Shown one piece after another: positions 22,381 to 54,544 of a stretch of DNA of 61,104 nucleotides. How positions within the stretch are numbered: position 1 is the first letter of the stretch; every line of letters starts with the position of its first letter. A program made the translations under genes and the position numbers. The notes beneath the pieces are model-generated. The model was not told the origin of the DNA and did not search any database. It saw only the letters and a list, made by a program, of their open reading frames with translations. The stretch is from Aggregatibacter actinomycetemcomitans (lineage in GTDB: Bacteria; Pseudomonadota; Gammaproteobacteria; Enterobacterales; Pasteurellaceae): positions 1 through 61,104 of the forward strand of contig NZ_NRDF01000012.1 of NCBI RefSeq assembly GCF_003130205.1, read 5' to 3'.

Positions 22381-23060
22381 TTACGCCGAGGTTTTCGCCA
22401 ATTTTTGCAACAACCTGTCCATTGCCCGATAACCCAGAGCTTCGGATAAGTGGCGTTGGTTGATGTGTTGTTGCCCATCTAAATCGGCAATGGTGCGGGA
22501 TACTTTCAGTATACGGTGATACGCCCGTACGGAAAGCCCCAATTTAGTCAGGGCATTTTCCAGGAACAGTGCGTCTTTGTCGGTCAGTTTGCAGTCCCGT
22601 TCGATTTCTTTGCTATTTAAATGGGCATTAATTTTGCCGGCGCGCTGAAGTTGAATGGCACGGGTTTTTAACACTTTTTCCCGTACCGTTGCACTGGATT
22701 CGCCACGATCGCCGCTATTTTGTAAACTGCCTTGTGGCAATAAGGGCACTTCAATGGATAAATCGAAGCGATCTAAAAAAGGGCTGGACAACCGATTCAG
22801 ATAACGCATAATTTGTTGTGGTGAGGTGCGATTATGGGTGCCTTGATAATGCCCTGTCGGGCTGGGATTCATCGCGGCAATCAGTTGAAATTTTGCCGGA
22901 AATTGAATCTTGGCGTTGGCACGGGAAATAATAATTTCGCCACTTTCCAACGGTTGACGCAGTGCATCCAGCACTTTGCGTTCAAATTCGGGCAATTCAT
23001 CTAAGAAAAGCACGCCGTTGTGAGCAAGAGAAATTTCGCCCGGTTTTGGTATTGTGCCGC
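22381..23060 (-). pseudogene. comM: comM, C-terminal fragment (disrupted)
   Basis: The last 225 or so codons of ComM (YifB, Mg-chelatase-like AAA+ branch-migration helicase needed for natural transformation). The fragment begins at GTIPKPGEISLAHNG, includes the Walker B FLDELPEF and the C-terminal domain, and ends LQKLAKTSA. The N-terminal fragment is at 54171..54544. Roughly 155 codons between them, with Walker A, are absent. The break is exactly at the left end of the transposon. ComM cannot be functional in this configuration unless another copy exists. Confidence 0.95.
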
Positions 23061-23214
23061 TGTCAAAGTTACAAATAAGTGGCATAATCGGCAAAACTTA
23101 GAACGATAGAATAAGGCTTTAGCCTATTTTTTTACCCTTAGAAGATACTATTTAATGGCACAAAAGCTACAAATAGCTGTCAAAATATATTAAAAGATAC
23201 CAATAAAGGTCAAA
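23061..23214. repeat. Left end with three TnsB-type binding repeats
   Basis: Repeats at 23069..23084 (TTACAAATAAGTGGCA), 23167..23185 (CTACAAATAGCTGTCAAAA) and 23197..23214 (ATACCAATAAAGGTCAAA). The first is next to the tip; the tnsA start follows 6 bp after the last. Confidence 0.75.
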
Positions 23215-23220
23215 TTATTC

Positions 23221-23883
23221 ATGAAAACAGAACCCATTTTCCAACAGGTTCGTAAGATCAAACCAACACGCCTTAGCGTATCAGGTTTACTCCCTTTTAA
23301 AGATGGAGTAAGCATTCCTTACGAATCTACGCTTGAGCGAGATCTCTTGCTTTATTTTACTTATATGCCTGCGGTAGAGGAAATCATTTCTCAACCTGTT
23401 CGCATTCTGTTTGTGAAAAATAGAATGACTTATCCTTACACGCCTGATTTCTTTATTCGCTTCAATGATGGACGACCATCGCTTTTGATTGAAGTAAAAC
23501 CGAAATCAAAATGGCAGGAACATTGGCGTGATTGGAAAGAAAAATGGAAAGCGGCAATGGCATTCAGCAAAAAGAACAAGTGCATCTTCCATATTTATGA
23601 TGAAGATAGAATTCGTCACCTTGCGTTATTCAACATTAACGCGGTTCAACGTTACAAACGATTACAGTGCGATCCTGAAGATATTGGAGCGATACTTACT
23701 CAAGTTAAGTTACACGGTGGTACCACGATAGATTTTCTGCTCTCTCGCCTTTTTACAGGTTCACTTTATCGAACCAAAGGGTTACAGATTATATATCACT
23801 TATTAGCAACCAAGCAGCTTACTTGCAACTGGTTTGAACCATTATCTGAATTTACCGAAGTTTGGGGGTATTCAAATGACTAA
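23221..23883 (+). CDS. tnsA: TnsA-like transposon endonuclease
   Basis: Restriction-enzyme-like nuclease that cuts the 5' ends of the element and, together with TnsB, allows cut-and-paste transposition. The 220-aa protein has the nuclease pattern: Glu39 in YESTLERD, Asp76 in YPYTPDF, and LIEVKPK with Glu91 and Lys93. A winged-helix C-terminal part follows. It overlaps tnsB by 8 nt. In the comM-inserted elements of Acinetobacter this gene is called tniC. Confidence 0.9.
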   Translation: MKTEPIFQQVRKIKPTRLSVSGLLPFKDGVSIPYESTLERDLLLYFTYMPAVEEIISQPVRILFVKNRMTYPYTPDFFIRFNDGRPSLLIEVKPKSKWQEHWRDWKEKWKAAMAFSKKNKCIFHIYDEDRIRHLALFNINAVQRYKRLQCDPEDIGAILTQVKLHGGTTIDFLLSRLFTGSLYRTKGLQIIYHLLATKQLTCNWFEPLSEFTEVWGYSND

Positions 23884-25795
23884 AGGATTTATTCATCCTC
23901 GCTATCACGGTCGATTAGAGCGTGGTCGTCTCATTTTGCAAAAAGGCAACGTTTATGTAAATCGTGAAGATGGCGAACAATATGAACTGATTGAGTATTT
24001 AGATGAAGATGCACAAGTGATGATCCGAAATCTTCATACTCGCCAAAGTAAAATTTCCAGTATTCATCAGCTTGAGAATTTAAAAGTGAATGAACGCGAA
24101 GATGTTTCTGTTGATTTAAGCGCAATCAGCGATGAATACTGGGAAAAAGCGTTAGAAAAATACGAAATGATTAAGCCGTTGCTTAATTATGAACAACATT
24201 GCCCTGCTTCTGTAAAAGAACGAGCAAAAGAAGTTGGAGTGAGTGATCGAAGTTTATATCGTTGGATTCAAGCTTACAACTCTCTCGGCTCTATCGCTGG
24301 TTTAGTCAGTCGTAAGCGTGGCTGGGCGGAAGGTAATTCGCGTTTAAGCAAAGAACAAGATGAGTTGGTGACAGCGGTTATCAATGAGTTTTATCTACAT
24401 AAACAACGCCCAACGATTGAGCAGACGATCCGTGAAGTGCAGCGTGTCGCCAGTCAAAAAGGGCTTGATAGCCCAAGCCGTCGCACAATCCGACAACGTA
24501 TTTTGCGTATTTCAGAAGAAGAAAGATTGCGTAAACGCGGGCAGAAAGAGAAAGCGAAAAATAAATTTACGCCGAAGCCAAACAGTTTCCCTAACGTAGA
24601 TTTTCCTTTAAGTGTTATTCAAATCGACCATACGCCTGTTGATTTAATTATTGTAGATAACCAGTATCGTAAGCCGATTGGCAGACCTTACCTAACGTTG
24701 GCAATGGATGTATATAGCCGAATGATTACTGGGTACTATCTATCACTTGATGCACCGTCGGTAACATCGGTTGCAATGTGTATTGCTCGCAGCATTTTGC
24801 CGAAAGAACGCCTATTACTAGATCATAATGTAAAAGGTGAATGGGCGGTATTCGGTTATCCGAATAAAATCCACGTGGATAATGGAGCAGACTTCCGTTC
24901 ATTGGATTTATCCAAATCTTGTGAGGCACACGGTATTGCCCTTGAGTTCCGCCCTGTTGGTCGTCCTGAATTTGGCGGACACATTGAGCGTGTAATCGGT
25001 ACGTTTATGAAAGAAGTTCACGGTTTGAGTGGTACAACATTCTCAAATACGAAAGAGAAAGATACCTATCAATCGGAAGCAGAAGCGGTAATGACCTTAG
25101 ATGAATTTGAAACGTGGCTGATTAACTATATTGTAAACGTGTATCACAAACGCACCCACTCTGCGCTAGGTATGTCGCCTGTTCAAAAATGGCGATTGGG
25201 GATTTTTGGTGATAAAGATCATGTCGGTTGTGGTTATCCGCAAATGCCTGTTGATGAACAAACGTTATTACTCGATTTCTTACCAAGCGAAAAACGAACT
25301 ATTCAGCATAATGGCGTAACGATTGATGGTTTACGTTACTACGATGTGGCACTCAATATGTACATCAATGATTCCGATGAAAACGGTAAGAGCAAGGAAT
25401 TTTTATTCCGTCGAGATCCTCGTAATATCGGCAAGATTTGGTTCTATGATCCGAAGTTGAAACATTATTTCCCGATTCCGTTTGCCGACCAGTCTTTACC
25501 TGATATGAGCATTTGGGAATACAAACAAGTTCGTCATTTCTTGAAAGATAAAGATGAAAAACTCATTCACTCGCAGCAGATCCACGATGCATTAACTGAA
25601 ATGCGTGAATTGGTTGAACAGTCTGCACAGCGGACGAAGAAAGCTCGGAGACAGGCTCAACGGCAGAAAGTCCACGCGAAAAGTAAGGTAGTGATCCCAA
25701 CAAGTTTACCCGAAAGCAAACCAACAGAAACAGTCAAAACACCTGCTTCTAACTTGCTTTTAGATAATGATTTCACGTTTGGAGATATTGAATAA
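23876..25795 (+). CDS. tnsB: TnsB-like DDE transposase
   Basis: Retroviral-integrase-fold transposase that binds the end repeats and joins 3' ends to the target. The 639-aa protein has an N-terminal HTH part (GVSDRSLYRWIQAYNSLG) and the rve catalytic core with Asp251 (QIDHTPVD), Asp335 (IHVDNGADF) and Glu371 (GGHIERVIGT), a D-35-E spacing. The basic C-terminal tail likely contacts TnsC. I start at 23876 after GGGGG rather than at the Met inside tnsA. Stop and next start overlap (TAATG). Confidence 0.93.
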   Translation: MTKGFIHPRYHGRLERGRLILQKGNVYVNREDGEQYELIEYLDEDAQVMIRNLHTRQSKISSIHQLENLKVNEREDVSVDLSAISDEYWEKALEKYEMIKPLLNYEQHCPASVKERAKEVGVSDRSLYRWIQAYNSLGSIAGLVSRKRGWAEGNSRLSKEQDELVTAVINEFYLHKQRPTIEQTIREVQRVASQKGLDSPSRRTIRQRILRISEEERLRKRGQKEKAKNKFTPKPNSFPNVDFPLSVIQIDHTPVDLIIVDNQYRKPIGRPYLTLAMDVYSRMITGYYLSLDAPSVTSVAMCIARSILPKERLLLDHNVKGEWAVFGYPNKIHVDNGADFRSLDLSKSCEAHGIALEFRPVGRPEFGGHIERVIGTFMKEVHGLSGTTFSNTKEKDTYQSEAEAVMTLDEFETWLINYIVNVYHKRTHSALGMSPVQKWRLGIFGDKDHVGCGYPQMPVDEQTLLLDFLPSEKRTIQHNGVTIDGLRYYDVALNMYINDSDENGKSKEFLFRRDPRNIGKIWFYDPKLKHYFPIPFADQSLPDMSIWEYKQVRHFLKDKDEKLIHSQQIHDALTEMRELVEQSAQRTKKARRQAQRQKVHAKSKVVIPTSLPESKPTETVKTPASNLLLDNDFTFGDIE

Positions 25796-26664
25796 TGGAA
25801 AAACAATATGAGTATGTTCACGAAAAATTCCGTCATTTAGTGATTGCAAGCAATCAGGAACGGATTGAGTTTTTAGATGAACCACGTTGGGTAGGTTATG
25901 CCGTTGCAAATAAGATCATTGATAATTTGGTTTCCTTAATGAATAAGCCGAAACGCCCTCGCATGTTCAATTTGTTGGTAGTCGGTGATTCTAACAATGG
26001 TAAAACGACGCTTATTCGACACTTTTATGATTTGTACGGCATACCTTTCGTGGACAGCCAGTCGGACGGTATACGCCCCATTATTTTGGCAGAAGCACCG
26101 CCGAGTGCAAATGAAAAAGAGCTTTATATCTCGTTACTGGAGCGTTTTTATGTTCCATATCGACCAACGGATAGCGTAGCTAAATTGCGTTATCAGACGA
26201 TTCACTTATTCCGTGAGTACAAGGTGAAAATGCTGATTATTGACGAATTCCATTCGTTGCTTGTGGGGACACCGCGTTTGCAACGCCAAGTGATGAATGC
26301 GATTAAGATGCTATGTAATGAGTTGCAGATTCCGATTGTAGGCGTAGGCACAAAAGATGCAATTCGTGTTTTACACACCGATCCGCAACACGCCAGTCGT
26401 TTTGATGTAGCAGAGTTGCCAACATGGAAATTAGATAAGGATTTTCAAAAATTACTCTTCCAATTTCAAGGTATTTTGCCATTGAAAAAATGCTCTAATC
26501 TACAATCGCCAGAGTTAGCGACAAAAATTCATACGATTTCAGGGGGTAATTTAGGGAATGTACATCGTTTATTAACCGCGTGCGCCATTGAAGCGATTAC
26601 AACAGGAACAGAGCAAATTACATTAGATATTATCGAGCATAATTCATGGGTACAACCAACGTAG
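25795..26664 (+). CDS. tnsC: TnsC-like AAA+ transposition regulator (TniB)
   Basis: ATPase that connects the target-selection proteins with the transposase. 289 aa with Walker A GDSNNGKTT (64-72) and Walker B LIIDEFHSLL (about 143-152), then a sensor segment IPIVGVGTKDAI. Size is that of TniB rather than the longer Tn7 TnsC. It overlaps tnsB at TAATG and tniQ by 19 nt. Confidence 0.92.
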   Translation: MEKQYEYVHEKFRHLVIASNQERIEFLDEPRWVGYAVANKIIDNLVSLMNKPKRPRMFNLLVVGDSNNGKTTLIRHFYDLYGIPFVDSQSDGIRPIILAEAPPSANEKELYISLLERFYVPYRPTDSVAKLRYQTIHLFREYKVKMLIIDEFHSLLVGTPRLQRQVMNAIKMLCNELQIPIVGVGTKDAIRVLHTDPQHASRFDVAELPTWKLDKDFQKLLFQFQGILPLKKCSNLQSPELATKIHTISGGNLGNVHRLLTACAIEAITTGTEQITLDIIEHNSWVQPT

Positions 26665-27764
26665 GGCTTACGAAAAATTATCGGATAAAATCAAGGATTA
26701 TTCGAACACCGCTTTACCTCAATGAAAGCATCAGTTCGTGGCTCATTCGTGCCGCCTTAGATTGTGGTACAGAGCCGATTACATTTACTGGATTTTATTG
26801 GGATAAGTGGCGACTATGGATATATGATTTAGATAGAGGGTTTGAACCGATTGCACCGCAGATTTATGAAGATATTAGGGCGTTATCGTTTAATCAACAG
26901 GTAAACTTAGTCAACCATTCGCTTTATTCCGTATTGAGACCGATTAATGGCGAAAGCACCCTTATTAAAGGTCAAGCGAAGTGGGTGATTTCAAGAGGTT
27001 CGCGTAATCGCACTTTTCGTGTCGGTCAATCTTATTGTCCTTGTTGTTTAGGGGAAACACCTTATTTGCGTAATGAATGGCGTTTTGCGTGGCATTTTGG
27101 TTGTTCGAAACATCAAGTTTTACTTGAATCTAAATGCCCTTGTTGTGGCGAACTGTATCAACCTCATTTGCTTTCCGCAGAAAAACGACACTTAAATTAC
27201 TGTCATCAATGTGGTGAGAAATTACAGGTTGTTACAACACCGCTTAATGAAGTAGAAATTGCAACAATGGAAACACTTAATAACGTATTTATGACTAACT
27301 CAGGTGAATGTTTCAGGAAACGTGTGAATGCACAAGTGTACTTTGCTATATTGCGTTACTTCATCAATCTTATTCGGCGTGCTACGGTCGTAAAATCTAC
27401 TCACGCTTTTGCAAAATTTGTGGAAGAATGTGGTATTTCTCAAGCGGAAATATGCCAAACCAAAACCGCCCTTGCATTTGAGCAGCTTCCTGTTGAAGAG
27501 CGCAAGAATCTATTGGTAAACGCGATTAAAATTCTAAAATTACCAAGTAAGGATTTTATTCAAGCTATTCAACAAAGCGGTATAACACAAAAGGCGTTCG
27601 ACTTTGAAAAGTATCCTATGGAGCTTGATATACTCTTTAAATATGCACCTGAAGGCAAAACTGTAAGCCGTAAAACAGTAACCAATAAACCTAAGACCGA
27701 TTCTGTTTTAAGTCTAAACCGTCAATGGGAGCGCTTAAAACGACGGCTAAAAATCACAGCATGA
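26646..27764 (+). CDS. tniQ: TniQ/TnsD-type target selector
   Basis: Target-recognition protein of the TniQ family. 372 aa with the TniQ opening (TPLYLNESISSWLIRAAL), zinc-binding pairs CPCC at 131-134, a Cys/His cluster at 150-156, CPCC at 164-167 and CHQC at 186-189, and a helical C-terminal part. The insertion in comM suggests it recognises comM sequence, as TnsD recognises glmS for Tn7. Its stop overlaps the next start (ATGA). Confidence 0.88.
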   Translation: MGTTNVGLTKNYRIKSRIIRTPLYLNESISSWLIRAALDCGTEPITFTGFYWDKWRLWIYDLDRGFEPIAPQIYEDIRALSFNQQVNLVNHSLYSVLRPINGESTLIKGQAKWVISRGSRNRTFRVGQSYCPCCLGETPYLRNEWRFAWHFGCSKHQVLLESKCPCCGELYQPHLLSAEKRHLNYCHQCGEKLQVVTTPLNEVEIATMETLNNVFMTNSGECFRKRVNAQVYFAILRYFINLIRRATVVKSTHAFAKFVEECGISQAEICQTKTALAFEQLPVEERKNLLVNAIKILKLPSKDFIQAIQQSGITQKAFDFEKYPMELDILFKYAPEGKTVSRKTVTNKPKTDSVLSLNRQWERLKRRLKITA

Positions 27765-44107: not shown

Positions 44108-44695
44108 TCAACTAAAATCTTGTTTTAATGTCTCTTTGTTTGCGCGAATCAAGGTTAATACCGCTTTTGCGCCGGCGTTTGTGTTAATCCCCGCGGTAAA
44201 CAGCTCCGCACTGTCAACAGCCAGCGTTTGCTGGATACTAACCGGCGATGCCACCACTTGCGCACCACTGCGCCCTTCACGCAGCGATTGACTTAAGCCG
44301 GGCTCACGGTAATTTGGCAGCGGGGGCACCGATACCGGACCGCCTTGTGCAAATGAGCGCAATTGGCGGCGGTTAATGGCATGCATAAATCCCACACCGT
44401 AGTGCGCCACAGACGCCGCTTTCACTACATACTCCCCGTCCGATAAGCGGGCAGGGATAGAATCCGATGTGCCGGTGCCCGGACCGCGGATATAGCCGCC
44501 GGTTGCGGCGGTAAGCGCCCCACCCACTGCACTGCCGATGGAGCCTAAAAGGCTGCTTCCCGCACCGGTTAACTGCATAGCAAGTCGCTTAGCCTCAAGC
44601 TGGATAATTGCATTTAAAATCGTGTTGGCGAGATTAAGCAGTGCATCGCGCAGCGTCATTGTGCCCTTGGCAAGCCCGACAATAGAGCTTTGCAA
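44108..44695 (-). pseudogene. Phage tape-measure protein, C-terminal fragment
   Basis: 195 codons with the typical tape-measure C-terminus: SSLLGSIGSAVGGALTAATG, a Gly-rich GPGTGTSDSIPARLSDGEYV motif, and VAHYGVGFMHAINRRQL. The long N-terminal part is missing; the frame joins VgrG-Rhs sequence at about 44700. Confidence 0.85.
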
Positions 44696-47480
44696 CCCTT
44701 CGGTTATCTAAAGAGGCGATAATAATTTCGCCTGATTCATTGTATTGAATCCAAATTTGTTCAGCCTGATGATAAATTTCTTGGCTTCCTGCGGTTAGTG
44801 CAGGAAGTAACAGTTCGCGACCTTGTTCATCAATATAAACCAAGCCGCGTGTTTGTCGTTCAATATGCTGACAGCCCGGTACTGACCAACCTTGTCCTAG
44901 CCAACCTGTGCCCATTTGGTCGGAATAATAACTACGAGACCAAACTAATGGCATTAATCCCGCAAAGGCGAAATCCACTTCATTAGTAAGTAATTTTAAT
45001 CCAAGAATAGGGTTGACCGGTCGACCCACTGCGGTAGCTGCTTTACAAGGAATGGATTCGTTTGTATTGGCCGAACCATTTGCTCCGGCTCCAGCAAAAG
45101 CTCCAACTCCTCCGTTAAAGCCACTATCATCTGTGTTATTGTCAGAATTCTCAGTCTCAGCACCACTAGAATCGTTACCACCAGAAGCGCCACCACCGCC
45201 ACCTCCAGAACCGCCACCAGCACCACCGCCACGAGCACCTCCGTCGCCACCGTCATCCGAAGCCGGCGCAGAATCAGCTTCAGCACTCGATGTCGCCGCC
45301 CCACCCGGATTCAAGTCAATGAGCTTACCATTAATACACACCGACTTCCCTTCCAGTTGAATATTCCCGTTCTTAAATAGGGTAAGACGTGCACCGGCGG
45401 TCTCAAATATCACATTATCCGCCTTGGATGTCATTGACACCGGACCGTTATTGGCGATTAACTGATAATCCTTGCCTACAGTAATGATTTGCGCCTCGTC
45501 AATGGTTTGGGTTTCCTCTCCCGCCACTTCTTTATAACGGGCTTTGCCGACACTAACTTTCTGTTCGCCTTTGACGGTTTCTTTGTGATTCCCGCCCACA
45601 TTAGTGGCACGGTCATTGAGCACTAAGGTATTCATATCCCGCTGAGCCTGGAAGTCCAAGCGTTGTTTACCCTGCTCATCTTCCATCATCATCCCATTAT
45701 AACCACCGCCCTTATAGGTCTGTGACATCAGATGCATCTGGGTTTTGTTTTGTGGTAATTTGGCCGGCAACGGCATATTCGCATGGTAGGTTCGCCCGGT
45801 GACTATCGGCTGGTCGGGGTCGCCTTCTAAAAAGTCTACCATCACCTCATGACCGACCCGAGGAATCGCCACCATCCCCCAGCCTTTACCCGCCCAAGGT
45901 TGGGTTACCCGCACCCAACAAGAACTGTGGTCATCATACTTGCCTTCCCTGTCCCATAAGAATTGTAACCGCACCCGTCCAAAGTTATCGGTATAAATCT
46001 CCTCCCCCTTCGGACCGGTCACAATAGCCGGCTGCGGTCCTTCTACCAACGGCTTGGTGCGTTGTAAGGGACGCCAGGTCTGGTGGCGTGGTAAGCATTC
46101 AAAGGCGGCGGTTAAATGGGTGCCGCGTTCACCGGCTTCCCCCTGAGCCCCCTGCGCCTGTTCGGCATGATAGTGCACCTGGCTTAATTGCCATAAGGTA
46201 TTAAAGGCGGCATTAGGATGACTCTGTAAGTTAATTAAACCACCCGCCATTAACAACGGACTGTTACTCTCCCCGCGTCCGCTATGGGCATCACGACGTA
46301 AGCTCTCCAACCGATAACGGCTATATTGTTTACCCCGTCCGTCTTTAAAGCGCCCCGGAAAGTCATAATGCTCATACATGGCACGTTGCGCCTCAAGGTC
46401 TTTGGCTTCTTCCGTGAAAGTGGCTTCCCACAGAGGCTTTTTAAAGGTGTAGTCTTTTAACACCGCCTGAGACACCCGCACCCGTTCACTGTGGGCAAAG
46501 CGACTAAGCGTGTTTTCTTGTAGTTGGGCGTTTTTATTGGGGTTGTAGTTTAAGGTGATGGCTTTTTCGTTGTTTAATGTGGAGGCATCATCACTGATAA
46601 CCAACCGGCTTTGTTCATCAAAGTAATAGAACAGCCCTTCTTCCGCCGCCAAGCGTTCAAAGAAGGCTAAGTCGGTTTCACGGTATTGCACACAGAACTC
46701 GCGCTCGGGGTGGGAGTCACGTAGCATAAAGCGATAGTCGGTGACTTTATTTTCATCAAGCAGGGTAGCGAGAATGGTTTGCAGGTCTTTTTGTTGGAAG
46801 ATGCGGGAATTTGAACGCAGTCCCAAACGCCAAAGGGTAGGGCGCAGTTGCAAACGATAGAAGGTGTTATGAAAACCGCTGTCACCTTGTTCAAATTGGT
46901 TGACAATACCGGTGAGGCGTCTTACCTGTTCGCCATCTTGCCAGAACGTGAGATAAGCCTCATTGTCCAACACGGCGACAAAGGGAATGGCATCATTCTT
47001 ACTGCTGAGTTCAAGATGTAGCGTAAAAGGCTCGCTGTAACCATCCCATAAATCAAAACCTAATACTTCAAAGCTGTCAGACGATACGCCCGCCGAGTGA
47101 AAAGTGAATTGCAGACCGCTTGGAGAACGCCCAAGTAAAGCTGATAAGGCATCCTGAACGGACGGTGTACCACCGACTTCACCGCCGATACCGACGAGTG
47201 GCGGCTTTTTGCCCCATTGTTGAACCCGTTGAATCACCTCTTTGCCAATCGCCACACCCTGTTGTACCTGAGCCACCCGTTCCTGAACCCGTGCCGCTCG
47301 TTTTGTCAGTTTCTTATCACCGGTAATTGCCGCCACCGGCTTGATTTTACCGGCAAGGGAGGCAACATCATTAAGCGTAGGAATGGAAATGCCGGAAGAG
47401 GATTTAGCTGTTTTTTCAACCGCACTTTTGGTGCTTCCTGATGAGGCAACAAGTGTTTTGGAATCCGAGCGTAATGTCAT
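44634..47480 (-). CDS. VgrG-Rhs fusion, cut off by the phage cassette
   Basis: 948-codon frame. About residues 1-115 are an unusual N-terminal extension, then a VgrG body: gp27-like domain (FHSAGVSSDSFEVLGFDLWDG), the gp5 OB segment (GPKGEEIYTDNFGRVRLQF, WGMVAIPRVGHEVMVDFLEG), and the repeat-rich spike (ETVKGEQKVSVGKARY). A Gly/Ser/Asp-rich linker (about 725-795) leads into an Rhs N-terminal domain (NPILGLKLLTNEVDFAFAG, VWSRSYYSDQMGTGWLGQGW). At about residue 925 the sequence becomes out-of-frame tape-measure DNA and stops. Known VgrG-Rhs proteins deliver C-terminal toxins through the type VI secretion system; no other T6SS gene is in the window. Confidence 0.9.
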   Translation of the reverse strand: MTLRSDSKTLVASSGSTKSAVEKTAKSSSGISIPTLNDVASLAGKIKPVAAITGDKKLTKRAARVQERVAQVQQGVAIGKEVIQRVQQWGKKPPLVGIGGEVGGTPSVQDALSALLGRSPSGLQFTFHSAGVSSDSFEVLGFDLWDGYSEPFTLHLELSSKNDAIPFVAVLDNEAYLTFWQDGEQVRRLTGIVNQFEQGDSGFHNTFYRLQLRPTLWRLGLRSNSRIFQQKDLQTILATLLDENKVTDYRFMLRDSHPEREFCVQYRETDLAFFERLAAEEGLFYYFDEQSRLVISDDASTLNNEKAITLNYNPNKNAQLQENTLSRFAHSERVRVSQAVLKDYTFKKPLWEATFTEEAKDLEAQRAMYEHYDFPGRFKDGRGKQYSRYRLESLRRDAHSGRGESNSPLLMAGGLINLQSHPNAAFNTLWQLSQVHYHAEQAQGAQGEAGERGTHLTAAFECLPRHQTWRPLQRTKPLVEGPQPAIVTGPKGEEIYTDNFGRVRLQFLWDREGKYDDHSSCWVRVTQPWAGKGWGMVAIPRVGHEVMVDFLEGDPDQPIVTGRTYHANMPLPAKLPQNKTQMHLMSQTYKGGGYNGMMMEDEQGKQRLDFQAQRDMNTLVLNDRATNVGGNHKETVKGEQKVSVGKARYKEVAGEETQTIDEAQIITVGKDYQLIANNGPVSMTSKADNVIFETAGARLTLFKNGNIQLEGKSVCINGKLIDLNPGGAATSSAEADSAPASDDGGDGGARGGGAGGGSGGGGGGASGGNDSSGAETENSDNNTDDSGFNGGVGAFAGAGANGSANTNESIPCKAATAVGRPVNPILGLKLLTNEVDFAFAGLMPLVWSRSYYSDQMGTGWLGQGWSVPGCQHIERQTRGLVYIDEQGRELLLPALTAGSQEIYHQAEQIWIQYNESGEIIIASLDNRRVAKLYCRACQGHNDAARCTA

Positions 47481-47751
47481 GGGGTTATCCTTATGAGGCC
47501 ATTAAATTTTTGTTGGCTAGTATGATTTATATGTGAATATGAAACAAGTTTTATACTCTAAAATCTAGATTTATTTGAAGGTGGTGGTTCAAAATCCTAC
47601 AACGCCGTAAAAACACATTTAATGTGATAAGCATATTTTTTCGCTTCAAACATCATTAGTGACAAATTCCCTAGCACCGAATGAGCCCCTAAATATTTGA
47701 CATCATCTTCAATTATGGAGATAATTATTTTAATTGGTAGACGGAGGGAAT
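47481..47751. other. Intergenic region between vgrG-rhs and the methylase
   Basis: About 270 bp between divergent genes; A/T-rich, expected to contain both promoters. A GGTTCAAAATCC stretch near 47588 recalls a tRNA T-arm but has no supporting structure. I see no gene. Confidence 0.4.
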
Positions 47752-48411
47752 ATGACATATCCAGGTGGAAAAGGTAAATGTTTCCAAAAAATCATTAATT
47801 TAATGCCTCCGCATGACGTATATATTGAAACTCATCTTGGTAGTGGTGCAGTACTACGAAATAAAAAACCAGCACTAAAAAATATTGGAATAGATCTAGA
47901 TTTTGATGTTATTCAATCATGGATTGGTTATTCTCCTGAAAATCATAAGTTTTTTAATAATGATGCATTGGCGTTTCTAACTAAGTACCTGTTTACTGGG
48001 AAAGAGTTAGTATATTGTGATCCTCCATATGTTCTTTCAACTAGAAGAAGACAAAAAATATATAAATATGAATACACTGATGAGCAGCATGGGGAGTTAT
48101 TGGATTTATTATGCAAAATTCCTTGCATGGTTATGATTTCTGGATATGAAAATGAGTTATATGATGAGAAATTATCGCTTTGGAGAAAAGAAAAATTTTT
48201 TTCTAAAACTCACAATGGAGTGAGAGAGGAATGTGTGTGGCTTAATTTCCCCCCTGCTGACAAACTACATGATGCTTCTTTTTTAGGAGCTAATTTTCGA
48301 GAAAGATATACTATCAAAAAACGCCTTAATCGTTTGATTCAAAAATTTGAGTTAATGGATCCGATTGAGCGAGATTATATTTTGGAAATACTTAATAAAA
48401 AATATATCTAA
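47752..48411 (+). CDS. D12-class DNA adenine-N6 methyltransferase
   Basis: 219-aa protein with the D12/Dam-type layout: PGGKGKCFQKI at residues 4-14, HLGSGAVLRNKKP (28-40) and the catalytic DPPY at 90-93. Shorter than Dam (about 270-280 aa). I start at 47752 after GGAGGG. The glycosylase gene follows 15 bp later on the same strand. No restriction endonuclease is adjacent; it could be an orphan methylase, or mark DNA for the neighbouring cargo genes. Confidence 0.85.
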   Translation: MTYPGGKGKCFQKIINLMPPHDVYIETHLGSGAVLRNKKPALKNIGIDLDFDVIQSWIGYSPENHKFFNNDALAFLTKYLFTGKELVYCDPPYVLSTRRRQKIYKYEYTDEQHGELLDLLCKIPCMVMISGYENELYDEKLSLWRKEKFFSKTHNGVREECVWLNFPPADKLHDASFLGANFRERYTIKKRLNRLIQKFELMDPIERDYILEILNKKYI

Positions 48412-48426
48412 AGTAGGTTTATAAAA

Positions 48427-49254
48427 ATGAAACAAATAGCAGCTGTTTTTTCAGATAGTTCTTGTATGCAGTTATTATCCCTCCCCGCCCCAGAGAATGA
48501 GGTTCTTCCAGGTGTAGTTTGGGGGAAAATTGAACAATTTCCTTCTCCAGCCTATTGGTATTACCGAGTATTATCTAACCGAGAATTAAATAACACTCCC
48601 AAATACCGGCTGGGAGAATCATTTATTGAAGAAGTATGCGCTTGTCTTTTAGGTGGGTATGGTATACCTGCATATGTTGGTTTGGCTGCGTTTCACTACC
48701 TCAAATCTCAGAATGTATTTTCTGATATGCCAACAGATAAAGAAGTTATTTTTAACTTGCTGTCTAAACCATTACAAATTAATGGAAAAAAAGTTAAATA
48801 TCGTTTTGCAAAACAAAAATCATATTATCTCGCTGAAGCTCTAAAATTTCTGAAAGAAACCAACCCACCATTTGGTAATGGTAAACAATTAAGAAATTGG
48901 TTATTACAAATACAAGGAATTGGTTATAAAACGGCGTCTTGGATAGCAAGAAATTGGCTTGATGCTGATGATGTTGCTATCTTAGATGTCCATATATTAA
49001 GAGCGGGAAGGGTAGCGAAGTTTTTTGATACTAATTTAACAGTTGAAAAAAATTATTTAAAGTTAGAGGAGCAGTTTTTAGAATTTGCCCAAGCACTTGG
49101 GGTGCGTACTTCAGAATTGGATGCTACTATTTGGTATGATATGATGCTGACAACAAATATATTTAGAAAAAGAAAGAGTACTCAGGCACTATCATGGGAC
49201 AGTATTTCTACCGAAAATAGCAACTCCCACTCCAAACAAATTAGATTGTTCTGA
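48427..49254 (+). CDS. OGG-like HhH-GPD DNA glycosylase
   Basis: 275-aa protein with a helix-hairpin-helix and catalytic pair of the OGG branch: LLQIQGIGYKTASWIARNW with Lys168, and ILDVHILRAG with Asp187. OGG enzymes remove 8-oxoguanine with an associated lyase reaction. An OGG-type glycosylase also occurs among the accessory genes of type IV CBASS. Its last 63 bp overlap the 3' end of the convergent oxidoreductase gene. It follows the methylase by 15 bp, probably in one transcript. Confidence 0.82.
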   Translation: MKQIAAVFSDSSCMQLLSLPAPENEVLPGVVWGKIEQFPSPAYWYYRVLSNRELNNTPKYRLGESFIEEVCACLLGGYGIPAYVGLAAFHYLKSQNVFSDMPTDKEVIFNLLSKPLQINGKKVKYRFAKQKSYYLAEALKFLKETNPPFGNGKQLRNWLLQIQGIGYKTASWIARNWLDADDVAILDVHILRAGRVAKFFDTNLTVEKNYLKLEEQFLEFAQALGVRTSELDATIWYDMMLTTNIFRKRKSTQALSWDSISTENSNSHSKQIRLF

Positions 49255-49875
49255 TAGTTTGCTTACCCATGGCTCGCCAGTAATTCCTAAGGGGCAGAAT
49301 GACATGTTTAGGTATGTAGCAGCCATATGTAATCCACATAGTAGGATGCCTGAATCTCTCCAGATTAGACTATCTGGGTTGTCATATTTCGCAGCTGTTT
49401 TCCCGTATTCAGCTCCCAGTAATACTATTGTTCCATCTTGAACATCCACTATGGTATTTACCTCGTTTCTTATCGTATTTATATTAATTTCTGATTGAAC
49501 AGCATTCAGGGTAAAGCTAAAAGGGTCAAATCTTAACAAATTTTTGTGAAGATGCGATATTAAGAAGATATGAATAGGATGTATCGCTCCTGCTGATGGA
49601 ATAGGCCTTTTGGATAATAAAAAACCATATTCACTGTTAGATAAAGATTTCACGATATTGGTTAGGTATAAAATATTAGCAATATCTCTAAGTTGTATCT
49701 CTGAAAAAGTATAATTAGAACATCTACTAAGAATTACTTGTTGAAAGTCAATTTTTTCTTCAATTTGCACATATTGATAGAGTGAATATGCAGTTTCCTC
49801 ATCCCAAGTAATTGGCATATACGGGATAATGCTTTTTTTGGGAGTGGGTATGCCTAAATCAGTCCATTTTTTCAT
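49192..49875 (-). CDS. SagB-like nitroreductase-family oxidoreductase
   Basis: 227-aa protein resembling the SagB/ThcOx nitroreductase-fold group: SKRPIPSAGAIHPIHIFLI, LLRFDPFSFTL, and WRDSGILLCGLHMAATYLNMSFCPLGITG, where the SAGA-HP and GH/GLHM segments fit FMN-binding positions of such enzymes. SagB-type enzymes oxidise azolines in peptide modification. The ATG at 49875 overlaps the end of the queC-like gene by 17 nt. It is the last gene of the minus-strand cargo operon. Confidence 0.72.
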   Translation of the reverse strand: MKKWTDLGIPTPKKSIIPYMPITWDEETAYSLYQYVQIEEKIDFQQVILSRCSNYTFSEIQLRDIANILYLTNIVKSLSNSEYGFLLSKRPIPSAGAIHPIHIFLISHLHKNLLRFDPFSFTLNAVQSEININTIRNEVNTIVDVQDGTIVLLGAEYGKTAAKYDNPDSLIWRDSGILLCGLHMAATYLNMSFCPLGITGEPWVSKLSEQSNLFGVGVAIFGRNTVP

Positions 49876-50455
49876 AAATATGACTCCATACCTCAAAATA
49901 TTTATTACATCCTCTACACTTACCGCAAGCTATATTAGACTTATGACAGCTATGTGCCCATGAGAGAAATGATTTCGGGACCCCCGATGTTATTATTAAT
50001 TCCTCCGTTGTCAAATGAATGGCTGGAGCTTTTATTCTTATGTATCCTTCTTGCATACTTACAAGATGATCCATTGCATCTATAAATTTGGGACTACCAT
50101 CAATGTGGTAACTATCAGATTTCACACTACCTATCCATAACTCATCTATATTTAATGAGATGGCCTTCATCGCTGCTAATGTTATTAACATCTGATTCCT
50201 ATATGGCCACCAATCGGTAGACGGAGCATTTACATTTTGCTGTATCCCTAATAAATCTCCTGAACCTAGAGCAGAGAGATCAACATTAATAATATGGTGC
50301 TCAATTTTTAATTCTTCACATATTTTCTTTGATACGGCTATTTCTGTTTTTGCTGCACGTTGCCCATAATCTATTGTGAACGCTACATTTGGCCTTTTCC
50401 ACCAAGCTAGACTAAGGGAGTCCATTCCTCCGGATAATAAGATCGCGGACTTCAT
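49859..50455 (-). CDS. QueC-like 7-cyano-7-deazaguanine synthase homologue
   Basis: 198-aa PP-loop ATPase with the signature LLSGGMDSLS (SGGMDS at 8-13), PYRNQML matching the RN motif of QueC, and a zinc site Cys170, Cys177, Cys180, Cys183 (SCHKSNIACGKCRGC). Housekeeping QueC makes preQ0 from carboxydeazaguanine using ATP and ammonia. This one is shorter, and lies in an accessory operon, not with queDEF. QueC homologues are also used in defence (QatC, and Cap9 of type IV CBASS). A role in modifying a small molecule or a protein is therefore possible. Confidence 0.85.
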   Translation of the reverse strand: MKSAILLSGGMDSLSLAWWKRPNVAFTIDYGQRAAKTEIAVSKKICEELKIEHHIINVDLSALGSGDLLGIQQNVNAPSTDWWPYRNQMLITLAAMKAISLNIDELWIGSVKSDSYHIDGSPKFIDAMDHLVSMQEGYIRIKAPAIHLTTEELIITSGVPKSFLSWAHSCHKSNIACGKCRGCNKYFEVWSHIYEKMD

Positions 50456-50490
50456 TTTATTTTTCCTTAGAAATTAGTTAATCTTTTTTA

Positions 50491-50973
50491 CTATAATTTT
50501 TGGCTTTCCCATAGGGTGCGGTAAATAGCACTTACATAGTCTTTAATAACTATACAATCTGTCCCTTCCATCATCTTTAAGTCTTCTGATTTTTCATTTT
50601 CATTATAGACAATAACAGGTTTATTCTTTGCTGTAGCGTATCCTATTTCAAAAATAGTCCCAGAATCTTTTCCATCAAAGATGGCAAATATAATATCTGA
50701 ATTATTTATTCCATCTATATCTTTAGGTACGACCATTATAGCATCTCCAGTTCCAATTTCATGATATGGTGAAAATACTATCAGTCCCATCTCACTCAAT
50801 AACCTTCTAGTTTCATTAATAAGCCATATCTGTGAAAGAGTAAAAAAAGGACCAGTTAAATATACAGTTACTTTTTTCTCAGAATGTCTATGTGTTATGG
50901 GTTGTACTCGATTTTTCCAGTTAGTAAATTCCTCAAAGCTTGGATATCCTCTTGTTTCATGTAGCTTTAGAAG
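50491..50973 (-). pseudogene. Nucleoside 2-deoxyribosyltransferase domain, cut from its upstream partner
   Basis: 160 codons with no ATG, GTG or TTG until an internal TTG at 50799. It reads HETRGYPSFEEFTNW, then VYLTGPFFTLSQIWLINETRR, FSPYHEIG, and the catalytic FDGKDSGTIFEIGYATA, the core of the nucleoside 2-deoxyribosyltransferase family. Because the essential GPFF segment is upstream of any start codon and it overlaps the end of the PfkB-like gene out of frame, I infer that the two were one fused gene and are now separated by a frameshift at about 50960 (skipping the T of ACA-T-GAA restores the fusion). Confidence 0.75.
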
Positions 50974-51727
50974 CTAACTCTGCAGCTTCAGTAGGTGTTT
51001 TCCCTTCATATATCCATTGATATGCAAAATGGGCAGAGAAACAATCACCAGAACCGATTTTCCATACGTTTTTTGTAAAATAACAAGGAACACTATCCTT
51101 CTTAATATATCTATCATTTAGTTTTTGATAAATATTAACTCCTCTAACTCCTTGCTTGATTATGACTACTTTAGCCTTGTTTTTAATTAATTCATAAGCA
51201 ATTTCATCTAGGGATAAATTTCTATTTTTTATTAATTTATATGCCTCATTTGTATTTAAAACAATAGCAAGTTCGTTTGCAGTTGAACCATTTTCAGAGA
51301 AGTCCTTGGGAGAAATCGGATTTTGAGGGTCATAAACAACTTTGTTCCCAGAAATAGTAGGATTACCTTCAAGCATTCCAAATACAAGAATATTGTCTTC
51401 TATAATTTCATTTTGTTGAGCAAATTCAGTTGTTATTGCGCTAATTTGAGGAGTGGATAGCCCGTGTAAATAGTGAAATTTTATCGGGCGATAACTTTCT
51501 TTTAAAGAAGAGCATATTTCGAAGGAAGTTTTATAGATTCCAGCTCTCGCTTGTAAAATGTTAGCACTATCTTTATTTAAACAAGAATATAGCTTTGTAG
51601 CACAGCCTAGGGACTGTAAGACTGATAGAGCCCTTCCTCCAGAACCGTATAATTCATCCCAATGTGGCCAAGCGCACCGCTCAATATATACACCACCAAT
51701 AACAGTAATACATTTATTATTTGACAT
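50957..51727 (-). CDS. PfkB-family sugar/nucleoside kinase domain
   Basis: 256-aa protein of the ribokinase/PfkB superfamily. The N-terminal GSGGRALSVLQSLG is the first signature region and IGSGDCFSAHFAYQW the second, with the catalytic Asp in GSGD. It is shorter than most members (about 300 aa) and ends AAELASKAT at the junction with the deoxyribosyltransferase domain, whose frame overlaps by 17 nt. A kinase plus deoxyribosyltransferase fusion would fit making or breaking an unusual deoxynucleotide. Possible products are inferred only. Confidence 0.75.
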   Translation of the reverse strand: MSNNKCITVIGGVYIERCAWPHWDELYGSGGRALSVLQSLGCATKLYSCLNKDSANILQARAGIYKTSFEICSSLKESYRPIKFHYLHGLSTPQISAITTEFAQQNEIIEDNILVFGMLEGNPTISGNKVVYDPQNPISPKDFSENGSTANELAIVLNTNEAYKLIKNRNLSLDEIAYELIKNKAKVVIIKQGVRGVNIYQKLNDRYIKKDSVPCYFTKNVWKIGSGDCFSAHFAYQWIYEGKTPTEAAELASKAT

Positions 51728-51736
51728 AATTAAGAC

Positions 51737-52087
51737 TCAGATATGTTTGATAGATACTTGAACTTGTCCTTCAATAATACTTTCTACAATAGCTATATAT
51801 TTATGACCGTTCTCCATGCAAGTGAGGAGTTGTGGAAGTACAATCCCTCCCGCTCTATCATCATTTTTGTATGCTTCAATAGATGTAAATCCTTCTTGTT
51901 TGTTTATCTGTAAAGTTAAACGATCTCCAATAAGTAAGCTTTCTATAGTTTTGGGTTGTGGTGATATTAATTGAGTGCTTTTTTGTAGTAATTCACATGA
52001 TGACGCACTATTACCTCCTTCAAAGCCTCCTATACCATTATTAAAGATCGGGTTATTTGAAAAATCACTATTACCGCTGCCAGACAT
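51737..52087 (-). CDS. Small protein with Ser/Gly/Asn-rich N-terminal tail
   Basis: 116-aa protein I do not recognise. The first 30 residues are disordered (MSGSGNSDFSNNPIFNNG, then GGFEGGNSASS), followed by a compact beta-rich part (LLIGDRLTLQINKQEG, AGGIVLPQLLTCME, YIAIVESIIEGQVQVSIKHI). It is the first gene of the minus-strand operon, behind a perfect CRP site. A flexible N-terminus on a small protein next to a QueC-like enzyme makes it a candidate substrate or partner, by inference. Confidence 0.7.
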   Translation of the reverse strand: MSGSGNSDFSNNPIFNNGIGGFEGGNSASSCELLQKSTQLISPQPKTIESLLIGDRLTLQINKQEGFTSIEAYKNDDRAGGIVLPQLLTCMENGHKYIAIVESIIEGQVQVSIKHI

Positions 52088-52176
52088 ATGTATTCTCCCT
52101 GTAAGATAATTATTTAAAATATTTGTACTACTAGACTTTATTTATTTTTATTGATAGTAAATATCAACCTTAAAAT

Positions 52177-52192
52177 ATTGTGATGTGAATCA
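52177..52192 (-). promoter_or_regulatory. Perfect CRP site upstream of the nucleobase operon
   Basis: TGTGA-TGTGAA-TCACA, both half-sites identical to consensus, 90-105 bp upstream of the start at 52087. The region 52088..52314 separates that gene from the end of the TnsE-like gene and contains no other feature I can support. Confidence 0.7.
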
Positions 52193-52314: not shown

Positions 52315-54063
52315 TTAGAGCAATTTAATGATACCGTTCCAAACCCAATTATTATTTGTCTTTTTAGCCTCCTTATGTCTAAATAACGACATTTTCCCGT
52401 CTTTAGAATCAACGTAATCGCTATTTACGCCCCCGCTTGATACGATTTCAATAAATAACTTAAATAGATTATCATTTCGGCTATAAACGTCACCTTCGCT
52501 TGACAAGAATTGTTGAATATTTTGAGTTTCGTAAACAACACTACTAAAACCTGAGTTCTCTTTTTCATTTCGAGCAGGGAAACTTAGTACAAAAAATGTT
52601 CTTTGTTGCACATCTACTCGCAATATTAACGCTGCGGCTGGATAGTATTGTTCCAGAGAATCAAGGATTTCGTCTAATGAAACTAACGTAAACTTATCGC
52701 TTTCGTTAAACCCTAGTTTAGGTGTGTACCAATAGACCTTCGCACCTTGTTCGTTGCGTAGGCGTTTAGCGTGTTCCCAAACGGTATTGAGGCGTGATTT
52801 ACCTTCAATTTCTTGATTACTAGGAATATCATAGAAGCAGTTAGCCATACCTGTATTACCTGTTTTCCCTTGTTTCTCACCTACACCGTAATTTTCTGGT
52901 TCATCATAATTTAAGAATTTAACTTTGCCACCTTTTTCAGCTTCTTGAACAAGCTGAATACGGTTAATTGTTCGCTCTTCACCAAGTAATTTCAGATGTT
53001 CAATAACATCAGCCGTTACAAGGTTATTCACGTTATCTAATGCAATATCGGGCTTTTCAAGTTCATGTTCTCGCTCTTGTTTTCGCGTTCTGTATTGAGG
53101 TTCTCCGTCTTTTTGTCCTTTACCACCTTTATTTGTTTTTATTGCAGAATGGTAATAAAGGTTAATTGGCTCGCCTTGTGGTTGGCTAATCCCTGTAATT
53201 TGGCAGCAAAGCACTGAATTTCCTAACTCAATACCATAGAATGAAAGCATGATTGGTTTGTCGTGCCAGCAAGGAATGAGGTAATTCGGTTTTTCTTTAC
53301 CTTTGGAAAGAATAACGTCAGCCATTACACTTTTCACCACCTTTTTCGTATAAGCATCATATTTCAAGTGATAAAGAAATACCGCATCTTTCGTGGAAAG
53401 GTTATTTGGTACGAATACACCCTTTTCTTTGAAAAACTCATTCAGACGTAACTTCTTCTCAACCTTGCTCCAGTTATCCGTAATCAATATACGTTTTAAC
53501 TCGCTAGAATAGCCGTAGTGAGCCATAAAGAAATGTAGTGGATGAACGATATAAGACTTACTATCACCTTCAGGCTTAATAACAAGTAACCGATTTCCGT
53601 CCCCTTTAAATGTTCTCAAATAAGACGAATGAACATATTTATCCGCTTCAAATGGATGTGGTGATTCCTTATCCGTCCAAAGCGCCTTATAAGCCAATCC
53701 TTTGCTCTTTGAAAAGGTAACTTTAAACTCTTTAAGTTTGAACTTACATTCTGATTCACCGTTTTTCCAGATGCTGCCGAATGGAACTTTATGCAGGTAA
53801 TTGATAGGCAAAGCAATCCGAAAGAAACTTTGACATTCTTCACCTGTTTTCTTGTTTATATAGGTAGGATTGGTTAAATTGATAAAAGTGACTTCAACGA
53901 GTGTTTTAGATTTATCTAGAGAAAGACGATTTTCATACCAAGTGGCAACATACTCATGCTCTTTATTGTAAAAACCGCGAAGAGGTTTTTCAAAATACTT
54001 TTCTAAATTAAGCGAACAACGCCAGCGAACTTTCTCTAATTTATTTTCGTTGAAATATGACAT
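52315..54063 (-). CDS. TnsE-like transposition protein
   Basis: 582-aa protein beside the right end of the element, reading inward. The C-terminal part resembles Tn7 TnsE in length and pattern: LNTVWEHAKRLRNEQGAKVYW, then LEQYYPAAALILRVDVQQR and FFVLSFPARN, matching the hydrophobic-strand/Asp pattern near the TnsE end. In Tn7, TnsE directs insertion into replicating DNA and conjugal plasmids. In Tn7 the gene is the fifth of the tns operon; here it lies at the opposite end in inverted orientation. The identification is by pattern and place, not by a strong motif. Confidence 0.6.
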   Translation of the reverse strand: MSYFNENKLEKVRWRCSLNLEKYFEKPLRGFYNKEHEYVATWYENRLSLDKSKTLVEVTFINLTNPTYINKKTGEECQSFFRIALPINYLHKVPFGSIWKNGESECKFKLKEFKVTFSKSKGLAYKALWTDKESPHPFEADKYVHSSYLRTFKGDGNRLLVIKPEGDSKSYIVHPLHFFMAHYGYSSELKRILITDNWSKVEKKLRLNEFFKEKGVFVPNNLSTKDAVFLYHLKYDAYTKKVVKSVMADVILSKGKEKPNYLIPCWHDKPIMLSFYGIELGNSVLCCQITGISQPQGEPINLYYHSAIKTNKGGKGQKDGEPQYRTRKQEREHELEKPDIALDNVNNLVTADVIEHLKLLGEERTINRIQLVQEAEKGGKVKFLNYDEPENYGVGEKQGKTGNTGMANCFYDIPSNQEIEGKSRLNTVWEHAKRLRNEQGAKVYWYTPKLGFNESDKFTLVSLDEILDSLEQYYPAAALILRVDVQQRTFFVLSFPARNEKENSGFSSVVYETQNIQQFLSSEGDVYSRNDNLFKLFIEIVSSGGVNSDYVDSKDGKMSLFRHKEAKKTNNNWVWNGIIKLL

Positions 54064-54127
54064 AATCCACTTCCTTTTCAGCCACTTAAATAGGTAAGTA
54101 GATTATAAATGATTTGGGTTATAAGGC

Positions 54128-54170
54128 GACAATTATTTGTATCGTTTGACAGTTATTTGTAATTTTAACA
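54128..54170. repeat. Right end with two close TnsB-type repeats
   Basis: Read from the tip inward (minus strand), TTACAAATAACTGTCA (54163..54148) and ATACAAATAATTGTC (54142..54128) follow each other directly, unlike the spaced repeats of the left end. The tip itself is TGTTAAAATT. Confidence 0.75.
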
Positions 54171-54544
54171 GCGGGAATGACGCCTTGCACTGCGCGTAAT
54201 TGCCCGGTGAGGGCGAGCTCGCCGATAAATTCAAATTGTTTCAGTTTTTCTGCATCAATATAACCGGAAGCGGCAAGCATACCGATGGCTATGGGCAAAT
54301 CGAAGCGTCCGCCTTCTTTGGGTAAATCGGCGGGGGCGAGGTTGACGGTAACGCGTTTGGCGGGGTATCTGAATTCGGCGTTGAGTAAGGCGCTACGCAC
54401 CCGATCTTGGGCTTCTTTGACGGTTTTTTCCGGCAAGCCGACGAGGGTGAAACCGGGTTTACCGTTACTTAAATGCACTTCAATGGTGACCAACGGCGCC
54501 TGAACGCCCATGGATGCGCGGCTGTAAACGATGGCTAAAGACAT
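54171..54544 (-). pseudogene. comM: comM, N-terminal fragment (disrupted)
   Basis: The first 125 codons of ComM: MSLAIVYSRASMGVQAPLV, GFTLVGLPEKTVKEAQDRVR, VNLAPADLPKEGGRFDLPIA, IGELALTGQLRAVQGVIPA. After this the sequence enters the right end of the transposon and stops 14 codons later. The Walker A region and about 155 codons that should follow are not found in the window. This fragment starts next to engB's terminator, in the native position. Confidence 0.95.

Follow-up and report, generated by a model that had tools for sequence, protein, structure and literature searches.

QueC-family enzymes that tag a protein with a nucleobase have been described in type IV CBASS (cyclic oligonucleotide-based antiphage signalling system; PMC11996544) and have been proposed for Qat (PMC13279940). 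As described in the latter paper, conserved MGTS or MGGS N-termini occur in QatB and in the CD-NTase of type IV CBASS, and that of QatB lies on a disordered tail. Closest in gene content is a QueC-like gene paired with a gene for a PfkB kinase and nucleoside 2-deoxyribosyltransferase (NDT; PF00294-PF05014), which was reported in July 2026 as Cluster 4 of the family PF06508, with purine salvage as a guess at its function (PMC13329287). Here, we analyse a 61,104-nucleotide stretch of Aggregatibacter actinomycetemcomitans DNA (contig NZ_NRDF01000012.1, hereafter the window), in which such a pair belongs to a larger gene set that sits inside a Tn7-like element. The reading we adopt, and hold to be a little likelier true than false, is that the set encodes a mobile, probably anti-phage, QueC-type system that would join a guanine-like base to the N-terminus of a small protein. 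The genes of the set in the window are as follows.

51737-52087, minus strand: small protein of 116 amino acids (aa), with an MSGSG N-terminus, a flexible linker and a HIRAN-like domain at the C-terminus; candidate substrate for the QueC-like enzyme
50957-51727, minus strand: PfkB/ribokinase-type kinase half of the kinase-NDT (Pfam PfkB), in its own frame with a stop at the end
50491-50973, minus strand: NDT half (Pfam PF05014), in a different frame from the kinase
49859-50455, minus strand: QueC-like PP-loop enzyme of 198 aa (PF06508, 97.6 bits, the Pfam QueC cut-off being 22), with SGGMDS and four Cys
49192 to about 49875, minus strand: SagB/ThcOx-like flavin dehydrogenase (TIGR03605, E 2.6e-15); ATG at 49875, with a TTG upstream at 49896 as a possible start
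48427-49254, plus strand: 8-oxoguanine DNA glycosylase-like protein (OGG; PF22175, 69.6 bits), convergent with the SagB-like gene, which its end overlaps
47734-48411, plus strand: D12-class adenine DNA methyltransferase, Dam-like (PF02086)

An earlier note on this DNA, made from the letters alone, had placed a group of minus-strand genes at 49192-52192, among them a QueC-like one with SGGMDS and four Cys, and both the open reading frames (ORFs) and the PF06508 score bear this out. The genes it named do lie in that range, but the set goes further: OGG and Dam, on the opposite strand just beyond it, belong to it as well.

Recurrence and composition of the gene set

Relatives were fetched with the QueC-like protein and afterwards with an alignment. 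Gene profiles were built from plasmid copies, refined on the loci and searched against the ORFs of 96 loci (the window and 95 others) plus six more, giving 102 loci. The loci came from 24 plasmid records (15 of them read with annotation), from the best 80 of at least 524 confirmed genome relatives, and from viral contigs, for which the first six (L095-L100) of the best 80 of 167 relatives were used.

The profile search found the QueC-like enzyme, which had been the query, at 102/102 loci, the kinase-NDT at 100 and the small protein at 99, followed by OGG (87), the SagB-like protein (82) and, beside OGG, Dam (38). At the three loci without the small protein the contig ends just before queC, and contig ends likewise cut the two loci without the kinase-NDT. 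OGG is either convergent and downstream, with or without Dam, or codirectional and upstream, depending on the locus, so its link with the set is independent of one inherited gene order. In 38 neighbourhoods of canonical queC, no ORF of at least 100 aa matched the profiles of the small protein, SagB, OGG, Dam, kinase-NDT or dGTPase. As the genes recur together at unrelated loci and at none of these 38 canonical neighbourhoods, their co-occurrence is not due to chance, and we are almost certain that the set is a real, conserved unit. The earlier note had suggested looking for recurrent neighbours of the QueC-like protein, and such neighbours do recur across the 102 loci, in unrelated genomes.

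The set is spread over about ten phyla plus the haloarchaea. The 95 fetched loci on the tree comprise 59 from Pseudomonadota, seven from Bacteroidota, two from Verrucomicrobiota and one each from Spirochaetota, Melainabacteria, Thermodesulfobacteriota, Ignavibacteriota, Campylobacterota and Myxococcota, with 21 left without a name by the tree tool; Cyanobacteriota and haloarchaea were added by the plasmid records. The distribution is patchy, with matches in 2/148 genomes of the order and 6/398 of the phylum (the genome of the window counted in both). Among 5426 complete E. coli genomes, 22 have a match, which covers most of the query in 18. The phage collection yielded only two weak QueC matches at 29% identity.

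Six contig-edge or split loci (L046, L058, L075, L083, L085 and L095) were left out of the tree, leaving 96 rows. OGG is present in all 79 rows with SagB and in 6/17 without it, the remaining 11 having neither; counted on the tree, this association amounts to four supported independent pairs and is not significant. Of the loci outside the tree, L085 shows SagB without OGG; its contig is short and truncated on the upstream side. No significant pattern was found between SagB and dGTPase. On the viral contig L100 (5206-9140), two small proteins and two kinase-NDT genes surround a single QueC-like gene.

A single ORF of about 400 aa encodes kinase and NDT together in nearly all relatives, with conserved motifs in both domains. 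Both domains that the earlier note had read as a kinase and a deoxyribosyltransferase are present and complete in the window, but there they are split between frames that cover positions 1-241 and 246-395 of the 395-position profile, and in the NDT frame no ATG, GTG or TTG comes before codon 59, which already lies within the domain. With its halves in separate frames the window copy may therefore be inactive. It may be a damaged copy or the product of an assembly error; relatives carry intact copies, and all other ORFs of the set are unbroken in the window. Programmed frameshifting was considered and is not favoured: the only other two-frame splits are at L046, which has an N, and at L075, where OGG is split too, while L083 is cut by a contig end. 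The PDB relatives of the NDT half are NDTs and a CMP N-glycosidase, so either transfer or hydrolysis is possible.

The QueC-like enzyme, the small protein and the proposed tag

The window enzyme carries the Cluster 4 signature, namely the SGGMDS loop, YGQRAAKTE and CHKSNIACGKCRGCNK (matching CH(x)5CxxCxGCxK), with five residues between YGQ and E where PMC13329287 writes six. By these motifs and its PfkB-NDT neighbour, which lies upstream of queC in the window, it is a member of PF06508 Cluster 4. The earlier note knew no described system of this composition; the QueC/PfkB-NDT pair is in fact in print. The main text of PMC13329287 makes no mention of SagB, a glycosylase or a nitroreductase, and its supplementary neighbour table may list more. 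No description that unites the small protein with SagB, OGG, Dam and dGTPase was found in the open-access literature, a coverage that takes in neither subscription papers nor outside preprints; PMC13329287 was the only paper recognised there as describing any part of the set.

The best PDB match of the enzyme is Cap9 of type IV CBASS (9nto; 4e-13, 52.6 bits), with E. coli QueC close behind (2pg3; 1e-12, 50.9 bits). In Cap9, Y115 stacks on the deazaguanine and D117 reads it at its guanine edge, and QatC has Thr at both positions (PMC13279940). D117 aligns with D119 of the window protein, which is invariant in 25 sequences, and Y115 with H117, kept in at least 90%; two QueC structures align at these positions in the same way as Cap9. 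Since the guanine-reading Asp is kept and a GSG[DE]xxG motif is common to both enzymes, the base handled is likely to be guanine-like, not necessarily the substrate of Cap9.

Among the 80 genome loci, 50 were examined for the 7-deazaguanine pathway of the host. Of these 50 host genomes, 12 are without a PF06508 match above 100 bits, and hence without a canonical queC, and nine are without a QueD-family match. QueE was sought with two models in 24 genomes, of which three (G158, G178 and G180; one metagenome-assembled genome and two drafts, completeness not given) gave no more than a stretch scoring about 22 bits and also lacked canonical QueC and QueD. Host-made 7-carboxy-7-deazaguanine is therefore unlikely to be required everywhere, unless these assemblies have gaps or the compound is taken up from outside.

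The small protein has an unusually constant beginning. Among the 100 profile matches, 93 begin with M[ST]G, compared with 91 of the 3494 ORFs that served as background, which are other frames of 90-220 aa at these loci, taken from stop to stop and mostly not genes. In 98/100 matches an in-frame start precedes [STGC]G or SSG, and residue 2 of these 98 is Ser in 91, Thr in three, Gly in three and Cys in one; the start was picked among such motifs by a ribosome-site score, a procedure that favours the motif. Of the 15 annotated plasmid stretches, 12 list the gene, and in each of these the database start agrees with ours. Between the N-terminus and the domain lies a linker that varies greatly in length and reaches about 180 aa in Halorubrum. 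Across 71 sequences, two Cys residues and one Gly never vary. The extreme N-terminus is among the best-kept stretches; the conserved part consists of the domain and the first three residues.

The C-terminal domain gave no significant match in Pfam or PDB sequence searches, and no HIRAN match was found in the nine members searched with Pfam. Its alignment by hhalign with six HIRAN (PF08797) sequences reached 89% probability, compared with 0.2% for SagB, 0.7% for OGG and 0.2% for kinase-NDT as controls; the HIRAN link thus comes from profile-profile comparison only. HIRAN domains bind DNA ends. In three haloarchaeal loci (L013, L175 and L176), which are without SagB and OGG, the small protein appears by eye to have the C-terminal domain twice, and Gly or Cys follows the Met. 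A tie between Gly2/Cys2 small proteins and loss of SagB was tried (raw Fisher p 0.001; Ser/Thr 79/79 with SagB vs 15/19 without) and is not relied on, as it reduces to two independent switches on the tree and is not significant.

The SagB-like profile has clear PDB kinship to CyaGox and the BmdC oxidase and a weak one to McbC, and the protein shares with the SagB/ThcOx azoline dehydrogenases a SAG-type motif and an invariant Tyr. It differs from them in scoring below the curated SagB cut-off and in having no visible YcaO partner: no YcaO cyclodehydratase was found among the module proteins, nor in the 25 listed of 108 flank Pfam families. OGG scores above its cut-off of 27, and K168 and D187, which we take to be the catalytic Lys and Asp, are invariant in 23 sequences.

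Judged by analogy, the parallel with type IV CBASS and Qat is close, as each combines a QueC-family enzyme with a partner that has a short conserved N-terminal motif on a flexible tail. Features found in type IV CBASS as well are a QueC-like enzyme in minimal form that keeps the guanine-reading Asp, small residues conserved at the N-terminus of the partner, and a base-handling N-glycosyl enzyme; OGG is a further gene common to both. Unlike type IV CBASS, the set has a HIRAN-like small partner that starts mostly with Ser, and a kinase-NDT and SagB instead. Likewise, qatABCD has a QueC-family enzyme and a partner with an unstructured N-terminal tail ending in a conserved motif (MGTS in QatB), whereas the 198-aa enzyme of the set is without the N- and C-terminal extensions of QatC and has His/Asp where QatC has Thr/Thr, and the partners are not alike, QatB being described as all-helical. 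The earlier note had seen no CD-NTase, TGT, QatA or TatD here. Consistently, the ten proteins scanned at 43.2-54.5 kb gave no family match to a CD-NTase, a TGT-like (tRNA-guanine transglycosylase-like) Cap10, the QatA ATPase or the QatD TatD nuclease.

Based on the conserved N-terminus and the proximity of the enzyme to Cap9, attachment of a base to the small protein, which the earlier note had raised as one option, is now the best reading, and we consider N-terminal tagging of this protein, on balance, probable. The kinase-NDT, together with dGTPase where present, would prepare the guanine-like base, either free or as its nucleoside. The QueC-like enzyme, acting as Cap9 does, would activate a carboxyl group on the base at the expense of ATP, and the activated base would be joined to the N-terminal amine of the small protein (Ser; sometimes Thr, Gly or Cys) once Met is removed. 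Where a SagB-like dehydrogenase is present, it would oxidise the adduct. This could take place after ring closure, in which the Ser hydroxyl and the new amide form an oxazoline that SagB would convert to an oxazole. The tagged HIRAN-like protein might then act at DNA, and OGG, Dam and dGTPase or a restriction endonuclease might act on DNA or dNTPs, as output or for self-protection. Azole formation is suggested by the dominance of residues with OH or SH that permit Met removal (Ser, Thr and one Cys) together with a SagB-like dehydrogenase; we hold this step to be doubtful, a guess, because Ser is also kept where SagB is missing and the link on the tree is not significant.

Genomic setting and a probable anti-phage role

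The earlier note had assigned the genes to a Tn7-like element, and the following features agree with it.

23221-27764, plus strand: TnsA, TnsB, TniB and TniQ (Pfam), Tn7-like transposition genes
54128-54161, no strand: two perfect repeats with starts 20 bases apart, at the far end of the Tn7-like element and adjoining the 5' part of a putative comM

Two weaker repeats, with one or two mismatches, lie near 23.1 kb. The element repeats have five matches vs 1.55 expected, and five were reached in 3/100 shuffles. The gene interrupted by the element is taken by us to be comM, with one part at 54119-54544, where ChlI matches, and the other, read by eye, at 22381-23094. Together, these minus-strand parts seem shorter than a whole comM, and a part may be lost. 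At the end of the element, a 582-aa protein (52315-54063, minus strand) has no match in Pfam, PADLOC or NCBIfam. Judged by eye only, a large protein further inside (44634-47480, minus strand) resembles a VgrG-type spike that contains a Gly/Ala/Ser stretch of low complexity and whose end is Rhs-like.

To compare the surroundings of the set, up to two ORFs on each side in 38 genomes (144 of 148, the four longest being dropped) were analysed alongside those of canonical queC in the same genomes (146 of 152). At E 1e-15, 227 PADLOC families matched the flanks of the set and three matched the control flanks, a count that is inflated because one protein matches many models and that does not mean 227 systems. 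The dGTPase model was matched by 11/144 flanking proteins and an oligonucleotide-cyclase model by 1/144, and Gabija, restriction and cyclase models are among the 25 families listed. The control matches were two mad models and one DrmC model, with one protein each. Because canonical queC is a core gene, this contrast shows island surroundings rich in defence genes and not defence by the set itself.

A dGTPase gene is present in 24/102 loci, at distances that reach about 2.9 kb, and in none of the 38 controls; it overlaps or abuts the set at L007, L068, L071 and L076. At L177 and L179, queC overlaps with a gene annotated as a restriction endonuclease. The river-water strain E. coli KMi029 carries the set on a recombinase-bearing island beside ssb, together with a dGTPase and a nuclease/UvrD pair that is Gabija-like by our own reading. 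The earlier note had proposed a defence role from the position in the Tn7-like element; the same-genome control supports this to the extent of the island surroundings, and we think it highly probable that the set has an anti-phage role. Genes annotated as multiubiquitin and ThiF-family occur near the set on Synechocystis and Rhizobium plasmids (L012, 1264-3740; L178, 7488-9303).

Alternative readings and significance

Several observations weigh against the tagging reading. Cap9 leads QueC by a small margin, the segment of Cap9 with Y115 and D117 is weak when aligned alone (E 0.014), and the stacking Tyr is replaced by His. The SagB-like protein scores 56.3 bits with TIGR03605, below the curated cut-off of 78.4. 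Ser is kept in 15/19 small proteins from loci without SagB and is thus not retained for SagB alone, and the link between Ser and SagB on the tree rests on those two switches. The kinase-NDT of the window is split between frames, and the three hosts in which QueE was not found would have no base from this pathway of their own. For the defence part, the inflated PADLOC count and the core-gene nature of the control count in the same direction.

The main alternative is a free modified deoxynucleotide: NDT would move deoxyribose to an unusual base and the kinase would phosphorylate it for entry into DNA, possibly that of the phage, with OGG excising it or protecting the host and the small protein serving as a carrier or regulator. 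The near-constant kinase-NDT with its conserved motifs and the recurrent OGG and dGTPase, all of which could touch guanine or deoxyguanosine chemistry, fit this. We nevertheless judge it improbable, as it leaves the well-kept extreme N-terminus of the small protein unexplained and no dedicated enzyme for incorporation into DNA is seen in the set. A version tethered to the protein appears very unlikely. Here, a deazaguanine-like base would be held on the N-terminal Ser via an oxazole, the QueC-like enzyme making the amide and reactivating it, the Ser hydroxyl closing the ring and SagB oxidising it. NDT and kinase would add the sugar phosphate with deoxyguanosine supplied by dGTPase, the HIRAN-like domain would bring the product to phage DNA ends, and OGG would clear the base from the cell's own DNA.

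Salvage of purines or 7-deazapurines, the guess of PMC13329287 for Cluster 4, is compatible with enzyme families that can be of the salvage type, and a VUT transporter, annotated for queuosine salvage, adjoins two related plasmid copies, following SagB. The patchy distribution (6/398 genomes of the phylum), the carriage on plasmids, viral contigs and a Tn7-like element, the defence genes in the flanks and the company of OGG, Dam, SagB and a conserved small protein all speak against it, and we rate it as very unlikely. Still further from credible is a cluster for a ribosomal peptide natural product, with the small protein as a precursor made into an azole compound by SagB and a partner: the dehydrogenase and an N-terminus rich in Ser and Gly would suit it, but the search for YcaO was negative in the scope given above and conservation lies in the domain and the first three residues and not in a core peptide.

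If the tagging reading is true, the set would represent a third lineage of QueC-type protein tagging, mobile and widespread, and set apart by its different partner protein, its oxidase, its kinase-glycosyltransferase and its recurrent dGTPase or nuclease partners. The small protein would offer a small substrate for learning what nucleobase tags do, and the natural E. coli copies (18/5426 complete genomes, with most of the set) would ease laboratory tests.

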